Assembly (NCBI GenBank): GCA_012719415.1
Contig: JAAYAK010000050.1
Location: 1-34,493 of the forward strand
DNA length: 34,493 nt
DNA from: Syntrophorhabdus sp.
Lineage (GTDB): Bacteria; Desulfobacterota; Syntrophorhabdia; Syntrophorhabdales; Syntrophorhabdaceae
Reading direction: 5' to 3'
This document shows positions 7,524 to 18,294 of this stretch, piece after piece (positions within the stretch are counted from its first letter, which is position 1; each line of letters begins with the position of its first letter). The notes below the pieces were generated by a model that worked only from the letters and a program-made list of their open reading frames with translations, was not told where the DNA came from and searched no databases. Made by a program: the position numbers and the translations under genes.

Positions 7524-9317
7524 TTACACAGCCACCGGCCTCGAAGGCACCCCGAACCCGATGGTCCTTGCCCTGTTGCCCTTCCTCAGGAACCTGTCCG
7601 CCACCCTCGGGTCCCATCTATTGAGGACCACCCTGTCTGGTGTCCCTGTCATCCCTTCCAGCTCCTTTGCCAGAAGGACAGTGAGCATCTCCTTCGCGAC
7701 CCTCAACGAGTCTGTTTCCAAGGCGATCCGCGCCGCCACGTCATCACTGACATCGATGATGAAGGGGAGTTTCCTCTGGATTCTCACCTGCTCTGCCATA
7801 TAGTCCCTGATGATGACCCGTCTGTCCTCCTCCCCGTAGAGAGGAACCTCGATGACCCTGCACCGGTCCAGGATGAACTGGGGAACGAGGGTGATGTCGT
7901 TCGCCGTCGCCACGAAGAAGGCCTTCGACAGGTCGACGGGGATGCCCGCCAGGAACTGGTCGGAAAACCGCATGGACTGGGTGACATCGAGGACCTCGGT
8001 GAGGACGGCAACGACGTCCCCGCTTGAGCCGTACCTCCCTGCCTTGTCGACCTCGTCGAGGAGGATGACGGGGTTCGAGCACCCGGCCTGGACGAGGATC
8101 CTGGTAAAAGCCCCCGGCACCGCCCCCAGCCACCCGAGGTTGCTCCCCTTGAGGGTGATGATGTCCGCGTTCCCCGAGAAGCTCACCGTGAAGAAGGGAA
8201 GACCGAGGGCCTCGGCGAGCGCACCTGCGACGGAGGTCTTCCCCGTCCCCGGGGGACCGGCGAGGAGAAAGGGTGCGGGTGTGGCGGACCCTTGTGCATA
8301 CCCGGCGAGGACGACCTCGAGCCGGATCTGCTCCTTCACCCCTTCCATGGCGTAGAGCCTCCTGTCGAGGGTCTCCATCACGGACCGGGCGTCGAGGTTC
8401 TGTTTTCGGGTGACGCCGTACGGAAGGGCGGTGACGGTCTCGAAGAGGGTCGCCTCCTTCTGCCCGTCGTTACCGACCGAGGACGCGAGGGTCCGTATCC
8501 CCTGTCCTACGTCCTGCCCAGCCTGACCAAAGTAGACAAGGAGCTTCCCGTAGACGACAAGGAGCCTCTTCGCCTCCTCCCAGTACCCCTTCTTCCCGGG
8601 ACTCATGCCGGAACGGTCCACTGCGGCCCCGATGAGGCGCCGCCTCTCCTCCATGGTCGCAAGGGATGCGAACTCCCACCCGACAAGGGGAAGGACCTCG
8701 GAGAGGATGATGGTCTTGTCCACGGGGTCACGGACATCCCAGGCGGGGCAGCCCTCCAGTTTCTCCCTGCGCGCCTCGTCGAGGCTCCGCCCCTTTGTGC
8801 CGAGAGTATCGAGAATGTTGCGGAGGTACTGAAGCTCCGCGGCAGTAAAGGGGCCCGTGACATCCTCCTGCCTCTCGGCTGCCTTCAGCCGGTTCCTCTT
8901 GCCGGCGAGGTCGAGGTTGAGGAGCCTGATGGCGGCAAAGTACATCTCCAGGCTCTGCGCCATCTGCCGGGGGGTGCGGCCGAAGAAGGCGAGGAGCTTG
9001 AAGAAGGCGACGGGGAATTCCCCCTCCTGCCAGGAGGCACTGGCCACGTCCGCGGCGATGGCCGTGTCCACGAACCTCACCCGGTCGAAGGTGCTCTTGA
9101 GGGAACCGAACTCCCCCCGAATGTAGTCCAAGAGGCCGGCGGTGTTTACGCTCTCGTCGGGCATGAGGGTGTCCTTCATGAAGGCCCTGTCGGGTTTCCC
9201 CCGCTCCTGTGCCTCCTCCTTCTCCTCGTCGGTCATGTTCGCGGTGTCGGCGGCGCTTGCCACCATCCACAGCGTCATCAGGTCACCCGTCGAAAACATG
9301 GACGCATCTCTCCCCAT
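7524..9317 (-). CDS. Lon-like AAA+ ATPase without a protease domain
   Basis: A 597-residue protein. Residues from about 315 to 520 form an AAA+ module that follows Lon ATPases closely: LDRRLYAMEGVKEQI, Walker A GPPGTGKT (354-361), the GxxxIRG-like region, PGAFTRILVQAG, Walker B ILLDEVDK (from 418), sensor 1 FVATAND (468-474), arginine finger LDRCRVIEVP (Arg485) and a sensor-2-like Arg near 539. The chain ends about 60 residues later, with no Ser-Lys protease domain. The first 310 residues match neither the Lon substrate domain nor anything I recognise; they are helical and acidic near the start (MTDEEKEEAQERGK). The frame opens at 9347, but ATG 9317 is preferred because GGAGG lies 6-8 nt before it. 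It probably remodels or unfolds a partner protein. The divergent neighbour gene at 9461 shares its codon style and is the obvious partner candidate. Confidence 0.8.
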   Translation of the reverse strand: MGRDASMFSTGDLMTLWMVASAADTANMTDEEKEEAQERGKPDRAFMKDTLMPDESVNTAGLLDYIRGEFGSLKSTFDRVRFVDTAIAADVASASWQEGEFPVAFFKLLAFFGRTPRQMAQSLEMYFAAIRLLNLDLAGKRNRLKAAERQEDVTGPFTAAELQYLRNILDTLGTKGRSLDEARREKLEGCPAWDVRDPVDKTIILSEVLPLVGWEFASLATMEERRRLIGAAVDRSGMSPGKKGYWEEAKRLLVVYGKLLVYFGQAGQDVGQGIRTLASSVGNDGQKEATLFETVTALPYGVTRKQNLDARSVMETLDRRLYAMEGVKEQIRLEVVLAGYAQGSATPAPFLLAGPPGTGKTSVAGALAEALGLPFFTVSFSGNADIITLKGSNLGWLGAVPGAFTRILVQAGCSNPVILLDEVDKAGRYGSSGDVVAVLTEVLDVTQSMRFSDQFLAGIPVDLSKAFFVATANDITLVPQFILDRCRVIEVPLYGEEDRRVIIRDYMAEQVRIQRKLPFIIDVSDDVAARIALETDSLRVAKEMLTVLLAKELEGMTGTPDRVVLNRWDPRVADRFLRKGNRARTIGFGVPSRPVAV

Positions 9318-9391
9318 GATCGCCTCCTCCCATTGCGATCGTTGCACGGAATGTTTGATTGTGATTAATAACGATAATATACTACTATATA

Positions 9392-9421
9392 TTGCAATAA
9401 TTAGGCAAGCATGCTTATAAT
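9392..9421 (+). promoter_or_regulatory. promoter with overlapping palindrome upstream of the unknown gene at 9461
   Basis: TTGCAA (9392-9397), 18 nt, then TATAAT (9416-9421) form a good sigma-70 promoter in an AT-rich 143-nt gap between divergent genes. A perfect 10-bp palindrome AAGCATGCTT (9407-9416) overlaps the -10 element, where a repressor could act. TTGCAA is itself palindromic, so it could also serve the opposite strand, but I see no well-spaced -10 there. Confidence 0.6.
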
Positions 9422-9460
9422 GGCATTAATGAATTATATCAGTAATACATGGAGGGCTCT

Positions 9461-10213
9461 ATGGCAGGGAGGGGAAGGCCGCGTAGGAACCCCTGGGACG
9501 TGATGCGGATGCAGCGGGTATATGACCTCTTCTGCTTTGAGAAGGGAGAGCACCCCATCACGTACTACGACATGGGGAAGCGCCTCCACAAGGCACTGAC
9601 GGAACTGGGGGAGGCGGTGTCGCCCCACACGTGCATGGCCGTGGCGAGGAAGATGAGAAAAGGCCTCTACGCACGGCCGGGAGGGGCGTACATCCGGGCG
9701 CTGGCGATGGCCTACGAGGGACCCGCCATGGACCCGGAGTACCCCTACCTCGGGGAGTACCTCATCCTCACGAAGCTCCGGGCGGTGAGGAAGGGGCGCA
9801 AGGCGGAGTACCTCGGCTACACGTACATGGAGAGGCTCTTCACCTGCCGGGACGACGACCATCCCTACTTCTACTACCTCATGTGGCTCGACGACGACGA
9901 CATCGCCATCGACGTGGCGCAGATGCTGGGGCTCGATCCCACGGATGAGTCCGTCACCACGATCGTGGAGAAGGTGATCAGGCCCTGCTCCGAGGATATC
10001 GACGGGCTCCCCTACGGGCCCTATGAACTGATCAGACAGGTCCTCCGGGATGCGGGGAAAAAATCGGATATGGTCTGCGCCGCCTCATCCGTCATCGTCG
10101 TGTACCTGTCTCTCAGGGAGAAGGTTTTCAACGTTCCCTTCACGACGGAGCTCATGTGGAAGAAGAAGGACGGATGGCTTATCATGGGACAGGAGGGGGA
10201 CTTCGGGGTGTGA
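9461..10213 (+). CDS. protein of unknown family, possible DNA-binding N-terminus
   Basis: A 250-residue protein I do not recognise. It opens with a basic AT-hook-like stretch (AGRGRPRRNPW), followed by a helical region containing YDMGKRLHKALTELGEAVSP and MAVARKMRKGLY that could be a helix-turn-helix. The middle is rich in Tyr and Asp (DDDHPYFYYLMWLDDDDIA) and the end holds two hydrophobic helices around VCAASSVIVVYLSL. I chose ATG 9461 because GGAGGG lies 4-5 nt before it; an in-frame ATG at 9449 has no ribosome site. It is divergent from the AAA+ gene and shares its unusual bias toward G/C-ending codons with many AGG/CGG/GGG. It may regulate the pair, or be the substrate or partner of the ATPase. 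Confidence 0.7.
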   Translation: MAGRGRPRRNPWDVMRMQRVYDLFCFEKGEHPITYYDMGKRLHKALTELGEAVSPHTCMAVARKMRKGLYARPGGAYIRALAMAYEGPAMDPEYPYLGEYLILTKLRAVRKGRKAEYLGYTYMERLFTCRDDDHPYFYYLMWLDDDDIAIDVAQMLGLDPTDESVTTIVEKVIRPCSEDIDGLPYGPYELIRQVLRDAGKKSDMVCAASSVIVVYLSLREKVFNVPFTTELMWKKKDGWLIMGQEGDFGV

Positions 10214-10297: not shown

Positions 10298-10680
10298 TCA
10301 GGTCAGCAGGCCCCGCCACAGTCTCTCGTACTCAGCCAGTCTGTCTTTCACGTTATAGTTCGTGACGATGTCATCACGGGCTGTCTTGCCCAGGTTTGCC
10401 ATCCTCCCGGGATGATCCAGTACCTCGTCCACCCGATCCGCAATCTCCCTGGGCGAGAAGAAGTCGACAAGGAGCCCGTTACGCGCCCTTCGTCTATGAC
10501 CTCCCTGACGGGTGAAGTGGCTGACCCCACAATGACGCACTCAGCCGCCATCGCCTCTATCGTGGACCAGGAGAGGACGAAGGGGACCGTGAAATAGATG
10601 TGGGCGGATGAAACCTGGAGGGTCTTAAGTGGCTATCATACGGGACGAGGCCCAGTGACCTGCACTGCTCTCTCTTAGAC
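10298..10680 (-). pseudogene. glycosyltransferase (GT4) remnant with two frameshifts
   Basis: Three adjoining minus-strand frames together give the C-terminal half of a GT4 glycosyltransferase. The order is LGLVPYDSHL, then KTLQVSSAHIYFTVPFVLSW and TIEAMAAECVIVGSATSPVR with EVIDEG, then NGLLVDFFSPREIADRVDEV and a C-terminal helix ending ERLWRGLLT. The EAMA...EVI-DG region is the nucleotide-sugar binding signature. The frame changes near 10636 and near 10490. The N-terminal acceptor domain is missing. It is therefore a truncated, frameshifted pseudogene, unless the shifts are sequencing errors; two shifts plus the missing N-terminus favour real decay. It lies just downstream of the giant helicase gene. 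Confidence 0.75.
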
Positions 10681-10813: not shown

Positions 10814-13800
10814 TTATGCTTTGTCGATTTTCATCACCCGGACAACTCTCGTCGGCTGCCCAGGGATTTCAAAATCGTCCTCTTCCCCGACTGATAAGCC
10901 AAGTAACGGGACGGCGATGGGCGCGTTTTCGTTCACCATCTTCATGTCGGGATTGCTGGGCCCATCTGTGATCCATACAGTGTACTTCACGTCTGGCTTG
11001 TCTTTGAAGCTATAGGTAACACGATCTCCGACCTCAACGAATATATCCTCAACGTCATTGATGCTGAGTGCCTCGGTCACTTCTCGGTCGAGAGCAAGAC
11101 CCTGAACCTCGACCTGCTCGTCTTCGACTTCTTCCACCTCAGGCTCGTATTCAAGCTCTTGATCAGGCCCTACCATCAACCGGCACCTATCAAGAAACTC
11201 GAAGAGCCTCTGTGCCTCAATTCTAGGATTTGTGAACCAGTCTGTTGACCATATCCGCCATATCCGGTTCTTCCAGCCGAGCGACTCGAGAATCTCTTGT
11301 CGGATCCTGTCCCGATCTCTTACCGAAGCGCCGCTATGGTAGGTTGCTCCATCGCATTCGATCGCTGCCATAAGGTGACCCGGCCTGTCGGGATTATGAA
11401 CTACCATGTCAATGAAGAAGCCCGCTACGCCGAACTGCGGCGTGACTGTATATCCTTTGTCACGGAGAAGGTCGGCGACAGCGAGTTCAAAGTCGCTGTC
11501 CGGCTCCCTGGAGGTGAATCCGGTTTCTGCAAGTATCCCCTTCTTGGCAAAATCCAAGTAATCCCTCAACGCCTTTGTGCCGATCGGTGTCTTCTCGTCA
11601 AGGATGATGTCCTCTGACGTCATCGACGTGAAGAGGTGAATTCTCCTTCTGGCTCTGGTAAAAAGAACGTTCAACCGCCGCCATCCTGTCTCCCTGCTGA
11701 TAGGTCCGAAATTCTGGCGTGGACGGCTTGCACCTGGCGCTTTACCAAACGTCGTGGAGATCATAATAACGTCGCGCTCGTCACCTTGGACGTTCTCCAG
11801 ATTTTTGACGAAAAACGGCCACCCATCCTCCCTGTGACGGCGCAGGTACTCATCCCCTTCGGAAAACACCCTTAGGCGTCTGTCAAGAAGCTCCTCAATG
11901 AGATCCCGCTGCGATTGATTGAGCGTAACCACCCCAAGAGATTCTTCGGGATGCTTTATCATATGCTCGCAAACGAGGTCCACAACCTTTTGAGCCTCGG
12001 GGATATTCTGTCTGTTCTGATACGCGCCGTTTCTCACATAATGATAACGGACCCCGAGACTCCCCGACCTGCGAAAGGGTGATGGGAAAACCACCAAGTT
12101 CTTGTAAAAGTGAAAGTTTGAGAAAGCGATTAGCGAGTCGTGCTGCGAACGATAGTGCCACCGCAGACTTCTAGTTGGCGAGAAGAGCTGCTGGCAGATA
12201 TCCAGAATGCTCTCCATCCCTTGTATCGCAGGAACTTCTCCTTCATCCTCTTCTTCACCGGACTCGAGCATGCGATCGAAGAAATTGGTCGGCGGTAGCT
12301 GCTTCGCGTCACCCACCACCACGAGCTGAGCGCCGCGAGCGACCGCGCCTATAGCCTCTTCAGGTTTGAGCTGAGACGCTTCGTCCATGATCACGATGTC
12401 AAACTTCAGCGATTCTGGATCGAGATACTGGGCAACAGAAAGTGGGCCCATCATGAAACAGGGCTTAAGCTCCTGCACTGCGCGGCCTGCACGCTTCAGG
12501 AGTTGGCGGATAGGAATGTGCCGGCGGGTCTTGTTAATCTCCCTGAGAATGAGCTCCATCTCGGTGTAATCTTTGGCATACGGGCCTTTGTGACCCATCG
12601 GAGGCCGTTTCTGCTTGTCGATCTGAAAGGCGAGATCCTTGCCCCGAAGGTCTATCATTTCCTTGTCAAGTTTCTGGTAGTCCTGCCGTATAGAATCATG
12701 AGACAGACCGTTGAAGCGCGCCAGCTCGGGGAATTTCCGATAAGTACTCTTCGCAATTGTGTTGTAGCCAACAAACTCTACGGCCATGCCAAGCTTGTCA
12801 GGCTCTATATCCCCGGCCTCCATGGCCGCCACAAGTAGGCGCAAACCATCTTGGGGGCAGGCAGCTCTTGCGGCGAGATACTTGGACCAGCTAAAGAGGC
12901 CAGGGAGATTGTCGAAGGCAATCTCAAGACGCCTCTTGATTTGCTTGGGCGCCGTTTTCTCTATCCCGATTTCTGACTGCTGTTGCCATTGCGCCAGACT
13001 GAACTCCCCGAATTGCCCGAGTTTTGAGAGGGCGTTCCTTACATTGGCGAAAGCCGAGAGTGTATTGTCGACGATCCGTATGACATCTACCAGCAGATCA
13101 TCCCCGTCCTTATTCAGAATATTCAGGAACAGATCCCTTGACAGACCACAGGTTGCGATGCTGCGCCCCCATTCGAAGGTGGCTCGAAGAGACTCCTGAT
13201 CGGTTGCGAGACCCTGATAGCGTGCCCCGATCATGGCCGATATCTCCGGATTCCTTTCGATGCGGTTAAGGATCTCAAAGCTCTTTTTTTCGTTGAAGAG
13301 CGCATTCACGCCTTCCCTAACGGACTTTTCGCTCTGCAATCTTCCTGAGAAAAAGTCTGCGAGTGCATGGAGTGCTCTGACCATCTCCTGGACGTGCGCA
13401 TGATACACGGGCCAGTCATTCAGGGTATGCGCTATGAGAGAAACGTCTTTCAGAGAATCATCCAAGGCAAGCTTCGCCTTGATTGATATCAACGCATCGG
13501 CAGCGGTAGTATTTCGCGGGAAAGCCTTAAGATAATCCGTGAGGCGCTCAATTTTGCGGCAGTTAGCCTCAATGACCGGCAGGTGCTGAAACCATGAACC
13601 GATTGTCGGTGTGGCCATAAATGGTAGAATCGTACCGGCTGCCTGCGCGATCTCTTCATTTGTGCTCAACCTTGTAAGCTCAGGTGACATACGGGATAGC
13701 TCGGCTGCTGCCTTCATATGTTGAAGCGCATTTTTGGGCGAGACAATCTGATCGACAAACCGGGAGAAGAACTGGAGGACCTCTCCGAGTTGTCGCGAGA

Positions 13801-16800
13801 AATCAGCTAGCGCCGAGATGTAGGTGGTGCAGTCTTGCCGCTTCGCGTTCTCCAGATCGAAAATGCTTGCTTCCAGCGCCGCTTCTGCCTGTGCGTAATT
13901 GTCGAATATGGATGTGACTGCCTCAGTTATGCCATTTGCCCTCACCGCCAGTTGGCCGATTCTAGCTGCTTCACAGGATGTGAGATCCATTTTCTCTGTG
14001 AGACTAGGCTGCTCCAGCAGTATCTGGTGGCTCTCCTTGTACCAGTCGCGGAGCGCCCTGACCTTTGAAATATTCGTCTCGAGACCGCAGAAGAGAGGTC
14101 CTATACACTCCCTGAACTCCGGGTCAGAGACAAGGTTCTCCCGGTGTTCCACCCACCGAATAATGTTGGAAATGACCCCGGCCCATTCTGTTGTGTTATA
14201 CTTCTTCTTGGCTCTAGAAATACCCTTGACGGCTTTCTTGGTCTGCCGGTAATCACGCCTTAGAAAGCTGAAGGCATTGCTGCCCTGTCGTAAGGTTCTC
14301 AAATGAGACCTCAATTCGATGATGGGAGGCAGGGTGTCAAGATATACCAAAGACTCGAGCTCGCCGCGCCACGACGCCTCTCGTGCGAGCCCATCGTGAA
14401 GCCGGTCGACAAGTTGATCTGCGACCGGTTGGCCGAAGAACTCCTTACGGTAGGCGAGTAGTTCTTGGGGAGCTCTGGCTGCAATTTGTGCAAGAGCTTG
14501 CAGTTCAAGAAGCTGCAGCTCTGTTCCTTCAATTTCTTCTATCCGGAGGTGGTTACAAGCCTTCTTGAGGCTGCTGAAGGATTTTTCAAGTCGGTCCACG
14601 ACTAGCCTAAGCTTTGCATGAGTTTCCTGCAGCTCTTGAAGAGTGCGGCTAGAGAGCGGAAACTCACAGAGGCGTCTCGCTTCCACGAGATCTTCCGCGC
14701 TTACTTTGGTGCCTGGTCTTAACTCGCGTATCCCTGTTGTCAGTATCTGTTTGGCTGACGCCGGCGTTCCGTCGAAAGTCAGATTGCCTTTCTGTATAAC
14801 CGCTTGCATCTTCTGAACGTCGGCGGCTAGGATATCGTGTTTTTGCAGCACGGCATTAACAGCCACTTCGAGGTCACCGAGTGGTCTGTCGAGGATGTCC
14901 ATGCCGTCCAATTTCGCGATTAGGATTTCAAGACCGTATTGATATGCCTCGGTTGCGTCCCGGTACGCCATGGATTCGCATTCGGGAGAATCTTCAAAAC
15001 TGGCCAGTGCTGCCGCGATTGACTCCGCCATGGTTATTATGGCTCCGGGATTTCCCCCTACAACCTCGGGGAGGCAGTTTTTTTCAACGGCTCTCAGCAA
15101 CGGTGTCACAACATCTGCCGTAAGGCCGTGGTTGGGGACGAGAATCATGGCGGCACATTCCGTGAGTCTCCTAGCCTCGTATATTGCCTCGAATGTCTTG
15201 TTCAGAACCTCACCTGCCCGGGAGCCGTCCAAATCTTCTGGTGCAAAGAACTTTGAGAGAAGGCCATAAACAAAGTTGACGGGGATATCCGGGATTGTGG
15301 CAAGGCGGCTACGAATTACCTCGAAGCCTGCCTCGTCAAAACACTCCTCTCCTCCCAACCCCCGATATTGTCCGATCGATTCAGTGATGGTATCGGCATG
15401 CTCCGTTGCTTCAAGCAGTATTTCGGCAATGGCATGTTCATCACCGGGGATGATTGGCCTCGGATAAAAACCCCACCACGGGTGATCCGGTCCGAAGCAA
15501 CCAATGGTGGGGAATAACTTTGCTGGCTCTTCGAGCACACTGCGGTACTTCTGCAGGTCTTCGTGACTCCATTGCGACATGTCTTGAATGCTTGCCGCAG
15601 AAAGCCGGTCTGTACATTCGCCAAGATCCTGACGTCGCCGGGACACAGCCCAGAAGATCTCGTTGACCGTTTTACCTAACTCGTTACCGAAATAGCTTCC
15701 CATAAGCTCCGCATACCTTGCCAGTTTCTCTCTGTTGGCTGAGAGCTGTGCCAGGTGCGAATGAAGGGACATTTGGCGAAAGCGTCGCGATATCCGCTCG
15801 TCCAGGGCCTCGACAAACTTTTTCTTCTGTGTTTTGTTGCTGTGAAGCTCCAAGCAGAAATCACCGAGACCTGCCATCTGCAATCGTCTCTGAACAACCT
15901 CGAGGGCGGCAAGTTTCTCCGATACAAAAAGAACTTTCTTGCCCTGGGCGAGGACTGCCGCGATAATGTTGGTAATAGTCTGTGATTTGCCGGTGCCGGG
16001 AGGTCCATTGATGACCATGTTCTTGCCTGCTAGAACGTCGATGATTGCGCTATGCTGCGAGGAGTCGGCATCATAAACGAGAGGTTGGTTGGCTTCCTCC
16101 ACCTTGTCAATCGTATAATCCTCGGGGGAAAAGCCATCACTGTTAGGCGTCGACCCTCCCTCGAAGATCATATTCAAGAGAGGATGCTTTATGAGCCCGG
16201 GCCATTTGTTATCATCGAGATCTGCCCAGATGGCCAGCTTACCGAAAGAGAGCATGCCAAGCGTGAGTTGCCGCCGTATCCTCCATCGCCGCTTATTTGC
16301 CACCGCGCTGTGTATCTTCTGAAAATACGTCTCCGGCGTGTCTTCATCCTCAAGTTCGGGAATGATCAGGGAAAAATCTTGGCGAAGTTTCTCTCTAAGC
16401 GTTTGATTTTCGGCGACATCCTCGCCAGTATAGTTGAGAACGTAGGTATAGATGCGTGTCTCTGGGTCAACCCCAATTCTCTCAAGTGATACCGGTACCG
16501 AGATTATTGGAGCAAACATTGGTTTCTGAGATGCATCGTCTTCGTAGAACTCGAGAAAACCGAATATGAGAAAGAGGATATTACTGCCTGTCTCCTCGAT
16601 TGAGCTTTTGGCGTCAGTGCTTATCTTTTTCAGGAGCCTTTCAAGCTCGACCGGATAATGAAGGGCCTGCAGGCTGATATTCCGATGGTTCGGCCCATTG
16701 ACAGGTGCTTCCATCGACACGTCGATTCCGAGTGATTCTGCGTACTGTTTCGCATCAGGTCGTTTTTCGCCAACCGTTAGAGGCTCTGGCTCCGGGACCC

Positions 16801-17041
16801 ATTTGATGGACAATGCCTTACCATCTATAATCTTGTCAAAGACTGTGTCGAGGTTCTGAACACCGGCGAACTGGACGGACCTGTTCTTTGGGTAACGGTA
16901 GCTGAGAAGACGATTGCGCGAGGTGAGATCGAGTAGGCGTACTCTTAACCGGCGTATTGCCTCCTGAATTGGCAGTTTGCCGGAAAACAGTTCGCTGACT
17001 ATTTCATTCGCATCCGCAGCTTGATATGCCGTAGAGTCCAT
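10814..17041 (-). CDS. giant DUF4011-type SF1 helicase fused to a Vsr/MTES_1575-like nuclease and a GreA-like tail
   Basis: A 2075-residue protein. Domains in order: a DUF4011-like N-terminus (residues 24-80, IRRLRVRLLDLTSRNRLLSY); an SF1 helicase core with Walker A GPPGTGKSQ (346-354); a very long helical insert of about 1,100 residues; Walker B IVIMDEASQL (Asp1553-Glu1554); WHYRSQHD near 1628; and motifs ENVQGDERDVIMIST and RRLNVLFTRARRR (about 1785-1800). Then comes a PD-(D/E)xK fold of the Vsr/MTES_1575 type: Asp1878, ECDGATYHSG (Glu1895, His1902), RDRDRIRQ and WRIWSTDWF. After an acidic linker, residues 2002-2075 resemble the GreA/GreB C-terminal domain (APIAVPLLGLSVGEED). All core motifs are intact, so it should be active. 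Helicase-Vsr fusions occur in phage defence (the Hhe type, which has a HEPN domain not seen here). GC and codon use look lower than in the pst region, which fits acquisition. A short-spaced AAGAGG precedes the ATG. Confidence 0.85.
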   Translation of the reverse strand: MDSTAYQAADANEIVSELFSGKLPIQEAIRRLRVRLLDLTSRNRLLSYRYPKNRSVQFAGVQNLDTVFDKIIDGKALSIKWVPEPEPLTVGEKRPDAKQYAESLGIDVSMEAPVNGPNHRNISLQALHYPVELERLLKKISTDAKSSIEETGSNILFLIFGFLEFYEDDASQKPMFAPIISVPVSLERIGVDPETRIYTYVLNYTGEDVAENQTLREKLRQDFSLIIPELEDEDTPETYFQKIHSAVANKRRWRIRRQLTLGMLSFGKLAIWADLDDNKWPGLIKHPLLNMIFEGGSTPNSDGFSPEDYTIDKVEEANQPLVYDADSSQHSAIIDVLAGKNMVINGPPGTGKSQTITNIIAAVLAQGKKVLFVSEKLAALEVVQRRLQMAGLGDFCLELHSNKTQKKKFVEALDERISRRFRQMSLHSHLAQLSANREKLARYAELMGSYFGNELGKTVNEIFWAVSRRRQDLGECTDRLSAASIQDMSQWSHEDLQKYRSVLEEPAKLFPTIGCFGPDHPWWGFYPRPIIPGDEHAIAEILLEATEHADTITESIGQYRGLGGEECFDEAGFEVIRSRLATIPDIPVNFVYGLLSKFFAPEDLDGSRAGEVLNKTFEAIYEARRLTECAAMILVPNHGLTADVVTPLLRAVEKNCLPEVVGGNPGAIITMAESIAAALASFEDSPECESMAYRDATEAYQYGLEILIAKLDGMDILDRPLGDLEVAVNAVLQKHDILAADVQKMQAVIQKGNLTFDGTPASAKQILTTGIRELRPGTKVSAEDLVEARRLCEFPLSSRTLQELQETHAKLRLVVDRLEKSFSSLKKACNHLRIEEIEGTELQLLELQALAQIAARAPQELLAYRKEFFGQPVADQLVDRLHDGLAREASWRGELESLVYLDTLPPIIELRSHLRTLRQGSNAFSFLRRDYRQTKKAVKGISRAKKKYNTTEWAGVISNIIRWVEHRENLVSDPEFRECIGPLFCGLETNISKVRALRDWYKESHQILLEQPSLTEKMDLTSCEAARIGQLAVRANGITEAVTSIFDNYAQAEAALEASIFDLENAKRQDCTTYISALADFSRQLGEVLQFFSRFVDQIVSPKNALQHMKAAAELSRMSPELTRLSTNEEIAQAAGTILPFMATPTIGSWFQHLPVIEANCRKIERLTDYLKAFPRNTTAADALISIKAKLALDDSLKDVSLIAHTLNDWPVYHAHVQEMVRALHALADFFSGRLQSEKSVREGVNALFNEKKSFEILNRIERNPEISAMIGARYQGLATDQESLRATFEWGRSIATCGLSRDLFLNILNKDGDDLLVDVIRIVDNTLSAFANVRNALSKLGQFGEFSLAQWQQQSEIGIEKTAPKQIKRRLEIAFDNLPGLFSWSKYLAARAACPQDGLRLLVAAMEAGDIEPDKLGMAVEFVGYNTIAKSTYRKFPELARFNGLSHDSIRQDYQKLDKEMIDLRGKDLAFQIDKQKRPPMGHKGPYAKDYTEMELILREINKTRRHIPIRQLLKRAGRAVQELKPCFMMGPLSVAQYLDPESLKFDIVIMDEASQLKPEEAIGAVARGAQLVVVGDAKQLPPTNFFDRMLESGEEEDEGEVPAIQGMESILDICQQLFSPTRSLRWHYRSQHDSLIAFSNFHFYKNLVVFPSPFRRSGSLGVRYHYVRNGAYQNRQNIPEAQKVVDLVCEHMIKHPEESLGVVTLNQSQRDLIEELLDRRLRVFSEGDEYLRRHREDGWPFFVKNLENVQGDERDVIMISTTFGKAPGASRPRQNFGPISRETGWRRLNVLFTRARRRIHLFTSMTSEDIILDEKTPIGTKALRDYLDFAKKGILAETGFTSREPDSDFELAVADLLRDKGYTVTPQFGVAGFFIDMVVHNPDRPGHLMAAIECDGATYHSGASVRDRDRIRQEILESLGWKNRIWRIWSTDWFTNPRIEAQRLFEFLDRCRLMVGPDQELEYEPEVEEVEDEQVEVQGLALDREVTEALSINDVEDIFVEVGDRVTYSFKDKPDVKYTVWITDGPSNPDMKMVNENAPIAVPLLGLSVGEEDDFEIPGQPTRVVRVMKIDKA

Positions 17042-17643: not shown

Positions 17644-18294
17644 TTACCACGATCCCGGCTTTTGCAACGACCTGCCATCGGGGGTGACGAACGGATTCGG
17701 GAATTGACAGGCCTGGTATCGGTCAATGCCGATTGTAAAGGAATCTGTCGCAATATTTGCAAGTTCAGTATTCTTCCGCCTGAAGGGAAACGCGCAGTAC
17801 ACCCGTTTTTCGGGAAACAGATTGAATGCCGTTCTAATGGCCGGCATGATGTCCGTGTCTCCCGTTACCAAAACGATGCTGTCACATTGATCTAGAACGA
17901 ACAATTCGAGCAGCTTCACCGAGATCGCCACATCTGTTTCCTTTTCCTCATAATGCTTCACAAGGGTCTTGCAGCCATTGCAGTACACATCCTTTGCCTT
18001 GAATCTTCCCATCTCCACTTTTACACCTGTAGCTTTCAGGCATTCAATGAAAAGCTCATGACGCGCGATTATCCCCGGGTCCTTATCCTGGCGATGAAAG
18101 GCAAATGCGGAGAAATAGTAGATCTCTTCGAGGGTGGCTCGGGGGGTCAAGGAAGGAAGATACATCCGGCAAAGCTTATGGATGTCGAGCCATTTGACGT
18201 TACGCTGTTTATACCGCCAGCAGGCATCGTTCAGCGAATGATACAGGTTAAATCCATCTATGAGGAATGTGGTCCTGTTCATTGTCAGGGGCAT
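17644..18294 (-). CDS. NYN-domain (PIN-like) ribonuclease
   Basis: A 216-residue protein of the NYN/DUF88 (LabA-like) family, PIN-fold metal-dependent RNases. The acidic active-site residues are in place: Asp13 in FLIDGFNLYHS (with Asn16), Glu119 and Asp121 in EEKETDVAISVKLLE, and Asp146/Asp148 in VTGDTDIMPA. A CxxC (YCNGC, Cys105 and Cys108) may bind metal, as in many DUF88 members. An in-frame ATG four codons in (18282) is an alternative start; neither has a standard ribosome site, though AAAGGG lies in the 3' arm of the leader hairpin about 12 nt before ATG 18294. A strong promoter 75-100 nt upstream and a terminator just before the start codon suggest control by read-through. NYN proteins act in RNA processing and in some phage-defence settings; the target here is unknown. 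Confidence 0.88.
   Translation of the reverse strand: MPLTMNRTTFLIDGFNLYHSLNDACWRYKQRNVKWLDIHKLCRMYLPSLTPRATLEEIYYFSAFAFHRQDKDPGIIARHELFIECLKATGVKVEMGRFKAKDVYCNGCKTLVKHYEEKETDVAISVKLLELFVLDQCDSIVLVTGDTDIMPAIRTAFNLFPEKRVYCAFPFRRKNTELANIATDSFTIGIDRYQACQFPNPFVTPDGRSLQKPGSW

Follow-up and report, generated by a model that had tools for sequence, protein, structure and literature searches.

Among the described ATPases of the AAA+ class with which the locus reported here can be compared, Clp-type motors work with or without a peptidase, and in the IetAS system an AAA+ ATPase is joined by a subtilisin-type protease partner, IetS. In Lon, an aromatic-hydrophobic pair in the pore loop serves protein threading, and the N-terminal domain helps the enzyme to assemble. 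All Lons contain an ATPase and a protease domain (PMC9569914). BrxL is described as keeping a C-terminal domain of Lon/RadA-like fold, and its identity to Lon is below 20% (PMC10164562). Here, we analysed a stretch of 34,493 nucleotides from a Syntrophorhabdus genome (contig JAAYAK010000050.1; hereafter, the window), in which positions 7524-10213 hold two divergent open reading frames (ORFs): an ATPase with a Lon-type AAA+ core and no protease domain on the minus strand, and a partner, a probable transcriptional regulator of the XRE type, on the plus strand. We propose that they form a two-gene accessory module in which the regulator controls a protease-free, Lon-derived unfoldase, a proposal that we judge as likely to be right as wrong.

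Purifying selection acts on both genes. Between the intact copies of the window and of a second genome of the genus, G403, the ratio of nonsynonymous to synonymous divergence (dN/dS) is 0.29 for the partner and 0.23 for the whole ATPase, in which residues 1-289 have 0.32 and residues 290-597 have 0.13; on these values we regard the pair as genuine genes rather than chance ORFs. The divergent pair of the original prediction, made from the sequence alone, stands with corrected starts, both deviating slightly from those of the longest ORFs. The start of the ATPase was set at the ATG at 9317, and the GTG at 9347 was discarded, because a ribosome site, GGGAGGAGG, lies upstream and the G403 homologue has its first methionine at this residue too. 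For the partner, 9461 is the most likely start, downstream of a GGAGGG ribosome site, which fits the predicted length of 250 residues.

The ATPase and its relation to Lon

The features of the ATPase are as follows.

7524..9317, minus strand: ATPase, Lon-type AAA+ without protease domain; 597 amino acids, ATG at 9317, 35% identity to the Lon of its own genome, dN/dS 0.23
8451..9317, minus strand: N-terminal region, residues 1-289, predicted to be mostly helical; no family match, in the place of Lon's own N-terminal region
7788..8450, minus strand: Lon-type AAA+ core, residues 290-510, from PDB matches, alignment with the genome's own Lon and hhalign
8235..8258, minus strand: Walker A, GPPGTGKT, residues 354-361, from alignments
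8127..8132, minus strand: pore-loop 1 position, W396-L397, where the Lons compared have the aromatic-hydrophobic pair Y-V
8046..8063, minus strand: Walker B, LLDEVD, residues 419-424, from alignments
7527..7787, minus strand: AAA+ lid, which includes sensor-2 R539, and a C-terminal tail that is conserved; the chain stops where Lon enters its protease domain

The alignments further place sensor-1 at N473, the arginine finger at R485 and sensor-2 at R539; the usual names of these motifs are applied to positions read from the alignments. Both intact copies of the ATPase, in the window and in G403, retain the full set of AAA+ motifs, and the claim that every ATPase motif of Lon would be found is borne out for Walker A and B, sensors 1 and 2 and the arginine finger. 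The pore-loop aromatic residue is tryptophan (W396), as against tyrosine in the Lons compared.

The complete Lon-type AAA+ module spans residues 290-597. The PDB matches are headed by Lon proteases (E = 1e-40), and the AAA+ core is 34-40% identical to Lons of the phylum. The host genome carries two ordinary Lons, one of which (784 amino acids, in L002) aligns from residue 290 of the ATPase with 35% identity over 251 amino acids; hhalign against the own-genome Lons begins at residue 288 and takes in a short segment preceding the core. The ATPase ends before the protease domain, as predicted: there is no match to Pfam Lon_C, the alignment ends at the AAA+ lid, and the score against the NCBIfam lon model is 182 bits at a cut-off of 608. 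Since Lons all combine both domains (PMC9569914), the ATPase is not a Lon. The N-terminal stretch, described earlier as about 310 unrecognised residues, is indeed unrecognised, but its length had to be revised to about 289, the similarity to Lon starting at about residue 290. Residues 1-289 have no family match in Pfam, NCBIfam, PHROGs or the PDB and correspond to no known Lon or RavA-type domain by sequence; they are about as long as the N-terminal part of Lon itself. This region is thus unrelated in sequence to the substrate-binding N-terminal region of LonA, and kinship at the level of the fold is possible. No similarity to the C-terminal domain of the partner was found (probability 0.6%). 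A weak relative of the N-terminal domain in G148 was rejected as a flagellar-type membrane-ring protein by eye, and a match in G097 (E = 0.005, 67 residues) was left out of the counts.

A scan of the phylum for Lon-like ATPases gave a match at E <= 1e-30 in 380 of 395 genomes, with 700 bits for the window ATPase and 146 bits for the best other match. No further protease-free Lon-like ATPase was accepted in the phylum: the frames of the other rows among the matches listed span 664-925 amino acids (787 for the genome's own Lon), and the protease motif GPSAG occurs in 5 of the 7 non-window loci extracted, including that with the 664-residue frame, with L052 and L054 lacking the exact string. In a maximum likelihood tree of 16 AAA+ cores, the Lon group does not include the two ATPases, which share a long branch, and because the key splits have support of only 54-64%, the tree is undecided between descent within Lon and a sister lineage.

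Compared with LonA (MEROPS S16), represented by the two Lons of the host, the ATPase shares the AAA+ module from about residue 290 with the segment preceding the core, both Walker motifs, the sensors, the arginine finger and the aromatic pore position, and differs in the missing peptidase domain and in the unrelated sequence of its first 289 residues. With BrxL as described (PMC10164562), it has in common an AAA+ module compared with Lon, the absence of the active-site motif of the Lon protease, an N-terminal domain for which no relatives are known and a defence context; unlike the BrxL described there, it ends at the AAA+ lid, leaving no room for a Lon/RadA-like C-terminal domain, and its core is 35% identical to Lon. 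None of the gene families of BREX was found among the window and neighbour proteins scanned. IetAS resembles the pair in its two-gene layout with an AAA+ ATPase, and IetA is the best match of the ATPase in PADLOC, although with only 38.7 bits and only over the core; the partner shows no protease family and has no PADLOC match. The pair does not have the composition of the RavA/MoxR group, a MoxR-type AAA+ core with a vWA-domain partner (AAA_3 match only at E = 0.07, below the cut-off, and no vWA match of the partner). Nor does it have that of the CBASS type in which a TRIP13-type ATPase goes with a HORMA protein and a CD-NTase: the TRIP13 match of 32.5 bits falls below IetA and far below Lon, and the partner again has no match. 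A literature search of open-licence PMC papers found no account of a Lon motor lacking its protease, whether by itself or accompanied by an XRE gene.

The partner protein and the intergenic region

The partner and the gap between the two genes contain the following features.

9461..10213, plus strand: partner of 250 amino acids, probably a transcriptional regulator of the XRE type, whose C-terminal region is new
9470..9481, plus strand: RGRP motif, AT-hook-like, conserved in G403
9491..9781, plus strand: predicted helix-turn-helix domain, residues 11-107, from the AlphaFold model and structure alignment
9782..10210, plus strand: C-terminal region, residues 108-250, with relatives in G403 and in the sister-genus genome G413
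9318..9460, no strand: AT-rich divergent intergenic region of 143 bp with sigma-70-like promoters oriented toward the partner
9392..9421, plus strand: promoter-like TTGCAA-N18-TATAAT; TATAAT identical in the three alleles aligned

The AlphaFold check proposed in the original prediction gave, for the partner, a model built from six alignment rows with a predicted local distance difference test (pLDDT) score of 68.8 (mostly 70-89 in residues 11-110) and a predicted template modelling (pTM) score of 0.65. Structure alignment of this model lists 28 chains with Z >= 5, 22 of which are repressors or other DNA-binding proteins of the helix-turn-helix type, judged by title or recall, and cover approximately residues 5-107 of the partner; the other 6 align mainly to different parts. 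The best alignments are with C.AhdI (Z 6.8), C.BclI (6.5) and ClgR (6.4), and lambda repressor, SinR, DdrO and CapH are also among the matches of this type. Residues ~7-107 thus likely adopt the lambda-repressor/XRE helix-turn-helix fold, and on the strength of this model the partner is read as a regulator. Its likeness to XRE and lambda-repressor-like regulators, such as C.AhdI, C.BclI, ClgR and the N-terminal domain of CapH, lies in the predicted fold and the divergent placement; it differs from them in having no sequence-family match and in carrying an extra ~140 residues of no known fold, for which no trusted match was found among the structure alignments listed. This C-terminal region is 26% identical to that of G413, and the copies of the window and of two further genomes of the genus, G399 and G398, end shorter than those of G403 and G413.

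The basic, AT-hook-like start that had been noticed in the partner is real in so far as RGRP is conserved in G403. Three promoter-like sites were found in the gap against 0.8 expected, and the promoter-like hexamers are kept between alleles; palindromes near 9358-9404 are weakly conserved in G403, and no operator motif was resolved. The RGRP start and the promoter-like sites in the AT-rich gap are what one would expect if the partner regulates both its own promoter and the adjacent one.

Near-identical partner genes are present in two metagenome-assembled genomes, Deltaproteobacteria bacterium UBA1386 and Syntrophorhabdus sp. PtaB.Bin184. Weak candidate distant relatives in G271, G167 and G124 were discarded: L010 apparently lies inside a 333-residue frame of HD-GYP type (by eye), L011 apparently lies inside a TPR protein, and L012 has three stops within the match. 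The partner also matched HNH proteins of Arthrobacter phages, which at E = 0.07 and 25% identity we ascribed to chance.

Distribution, exchange and surroundings

The pair was sought in 12 genomes of the genus, including that of the window (G000), and in a family search of 39 genomes that includes these 12. In G403 (locus L026), both genes occur in the same divergent order, with the ATPase 85% and the partner 57% identical to those of the window. Besides these two intact pairs, the 12 genomes contain 3 fragments at contig edges, 1 relic and 6 genomes without either gene. The fragments are the partner in G399, where the contig edge falls exactly at the start of the ATPase and the partner gene contains two N, the partner in G398 and the C-terminus of the ATPase in G397; the relic is a C-terminal piece of the ATPase behind an AbiEii gene in G404. 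In one search that gave matches in seven genomes, those in G396, G400 and G405 reached only E 0.2-0.3, and these three were counted as lacking the gene. Beyond the genus, the family search returned only a partner fragment in G413, likewise at a contig edge. The expected co-occurrence is upheld to the extent that homologues are not usually apart, and no intact gene without its mate was seen in the readable places, of which only two are readable in full. No further family member was found in 395 genomes of the phylum, nor in 297 genomes of the phylum searched with a deeper partner profile, and no relative of the pair in the phages, plasmids or viral contigs searched; IMG/VR matches (L046 and L072-L088) were rejected as generic AAA+ proteins at 26-32% identity.

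Contigs end within the gene pair in four assemblies (L041:1-346 in G397, L013:1-145 in G399, L014:1-391 in G398 and L060:1-486 in G413). Such breaks are perhaps more frequent than chance would give for the contig numbers, and strain variation within populations may be a cause.

The locus is exchanged and decaying among defence-type genes. Between G397 and the window, the synonymous divergence (dS) jumps from 0.055 in the adjoining lipoprotein gene to 0.365 in the C-terminus of the ATPase. Between G403 and the window, it is 0.385 for the ATPase and 0.376 for a nearby NYN gene; as dS is 1.23 for the partner, against 0.385 for the ATPase, the partner of G403 belongs to a different allele lineage, and these comparisons hint that the partner may be the variable element of the pair. 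The DNA common to the window and G403 starts at 7525, in the stop codon of the ATPase, and that common to the window and G399 and G398 ends at 10318-10320.

The neighbours include a helicase of 2075 amino acids in the window (10814-17041) with DUF4011, an MTES_1575 nuclease and a weakly GreA/GreB-like end, related to Hhe/PDC-S37 of PADLOC, and an NYN protein (17644-18294; PADLOC HEC-09) that is 94% identical to the NYN protein beside the G403 pair. PADLOC also identifies HEC-09 next to the pair of G403, a full-length PDC-S53 helicase (1381 bits) next to the partner of G399 and AbiE adjoining the relic of G404, where Cas3-like and further CRISPR-type genes are recognizable by eye. As a control, ten proteins encoded in the conserved right part of the window were scanned as well; no more than two of them passed 1e-10, an ABC ATPase at 106 bits and a sensor kinase at 40 bits, which is normal for domains of such general occurrence.

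Several further observations concern these loci. Beside the partner of G399, L013:1203-6004 holds the PDC-S53 helicase and a two-gene set, one gene of which is weakly LeoBC-like. G403 has a second, partial partner gene (L026:12437-14207) beside NYN, resolvase and transposase genes, and a short stretch near 12340-12395 of L026 repeats the end of a transposon ATPase gene at 15034. Window positions 10298-10658 recur at G000:C125:11562-11917 (85% identity) and in G396 and G402 (79-82%), perhaps as a gene relic. A tRNA-Ala (50-125) and a DUF3800-V RNA (274-371) lie at the edge of the variable stretch of the window, a usual site of inserted islands.

The G+C content at third codon positions (GC3) is 0.85 and 0.87 in the pair, 0.59 in the helicase, 0.60 in the NYN gene and 0.74-0.84 in the host-type genes at 19.8-34.1 kb. 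Thus, the pair does share a codon bias unlike that of the helicase, as had been noted; as a marker of travelling together, this bias fails, given that it is host-like and that the helicase, not the pair, is the outlier. A foreign origin of the pair was therefore not accepted from codon usage, which, being host-like, is no mark of foreignness and no proof of joint arrival.

Proposed function of the pair and rival explanations

If the pair is an accessory module under its own regulator, the partner would bind the AT-rich 143-bp gap and control both itself and the ATPase, holding the divergent promoters shut or setting their level. The ATPase would be a ring motor derived from a Lon-type AAA+ module, now without the peptidase domain and with another N-terminal domain, predicted to be helical, which would pick the target protein; the motor would grip, thread, unfold or remodel this target and then let it go uncut, release instead of cutting being suggested by the kept pore aromatic and the missing peptidase. 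Stress or infection would free the ATPase from its regulator and so switch it on. The likeliest use would be against phages or mobile elements, an infection-linked use being our first guess because of the patchy presence, the decay and the exchange at a site that collects defence genes. An anti-phage role is plausible.

Several results weigh against this interpretation. The partner belongs to no family by sequence in Pfam, NCBIfam, PHROGs or PADLOC, and no helix-turn-helix model matched it; the Z values of 5-7 sit inside the stated background range of the alignment tool, and Foldseek of the model against the PDB and BFVD returned nothing at E <= 0.001, so that the helix-turn-helix assignment, with these Z values and with Foldseek alone not significant, is graded only as likely. 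The model of the ATPase (two alignment rows, pLDDT 35), from which the helical prediction for residues 1-289 comes, is too poor to use. The ATPase and the partner of G403 do not have one common history, contrary to strict co-inheritance. The best defence neighbours vary from locus to locus, the neighbours tested in G397 and G413 are only repeat proteins with no convincing defence match, and the one of two G398 neighbours scanned with PADLOC has no match. The earlier view of an AAA+ ATPase with a small partner as a layout of defence or remodelling systems holds in that the pair is kept in G403; it does not hold for the partner, which looks like an XRE-type regulator and not like an enzymatic or structural component, and it is only the surroundings that suggest defence. 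The stronger claim of a new kind of bacterial defence module, whose Lon AAA+ motor, stripped of protease and N-terminal domain, would have gained a new target-recognition domain to unfold proteins of invaders, with the XRE-type partner as a DNA-sensing switch and variable specificity element, is in our judgement unlikely.

The same facts can be read differently. The pair could be a genus-specific stress or housekeeping module, a chaperone with its regulator, unconnected with phages and located in a variable region by circumstance, a possibility that we take seriously while leaning against it: the codon usage resembles that of the window's host-type genes and not that of the helicase and NYN genes, within the sequences searched, the genes are confined to a single bacterial family and have no relative in phages, plasmids or viral contigs, and one flank in G397 consists of ordinary genes, but a trait that is patchily present, leaves relics and is exchanged locally looks accessory and subject to changing selection. 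We are more doubtful that the two proteins work as one machine, with the partner as an adaptor, substrate or effector of the ATPase whose helix-turn-helix-like domain would direct the complex to DNA. A simple repressor would be smaller than the partner, its separate C-terminal region is conserved into the sister genus, the ATPase is conserved while the partner diverges, as for a general motor with a variable specificity subunit, and G403 has its second, partial copy; divergent transcription across an AT-rich gap is, however, the usual layout of a regulator, and the sequences are too few for co-variation.

Two other explanations fare worse. With a core 34-40% identical to phylum Lons, the kept segment before it and two ordinary Lons in the host, the ATPase could be a protease-free subunit that mixes or competes with host Lon and blocks it; yet mixed rings are unlikely at this identity, and the N-terminal domain is unrelated by sequence to that of Lon, so that we rate this as very improbable. 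Least credible of all is a decaying Lon fragment next to an ORFan, with no functional module. The relic in G404 and the short C-terminus of the window partner, unlike the long one seen in G403 and G413, are what decay would leave behind, whereas the full-length frames in two genomes, with all motifs kept and dN/dS of 0.13-0.32 in every part measured, together with the ribosome sites and the conserved promoter-like hexamers, speak for functional genes; the selection estimates largely refute decay.

In the Lon lineage, motor and protease form one chain. If the ATPase described here is active, remodelling alone would be shown to be a possible use of the Lon motor, and nature would have provided a means of testing what the Lon AAA+ ring can do unaided. 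If the module gives protection from phages, the known defence ATPases would gain an unfoldase derived from Lon. Should neither hold, the pair would still represent a clearly bounded protein family that is rapidly exchanged within a syntrophic genus.

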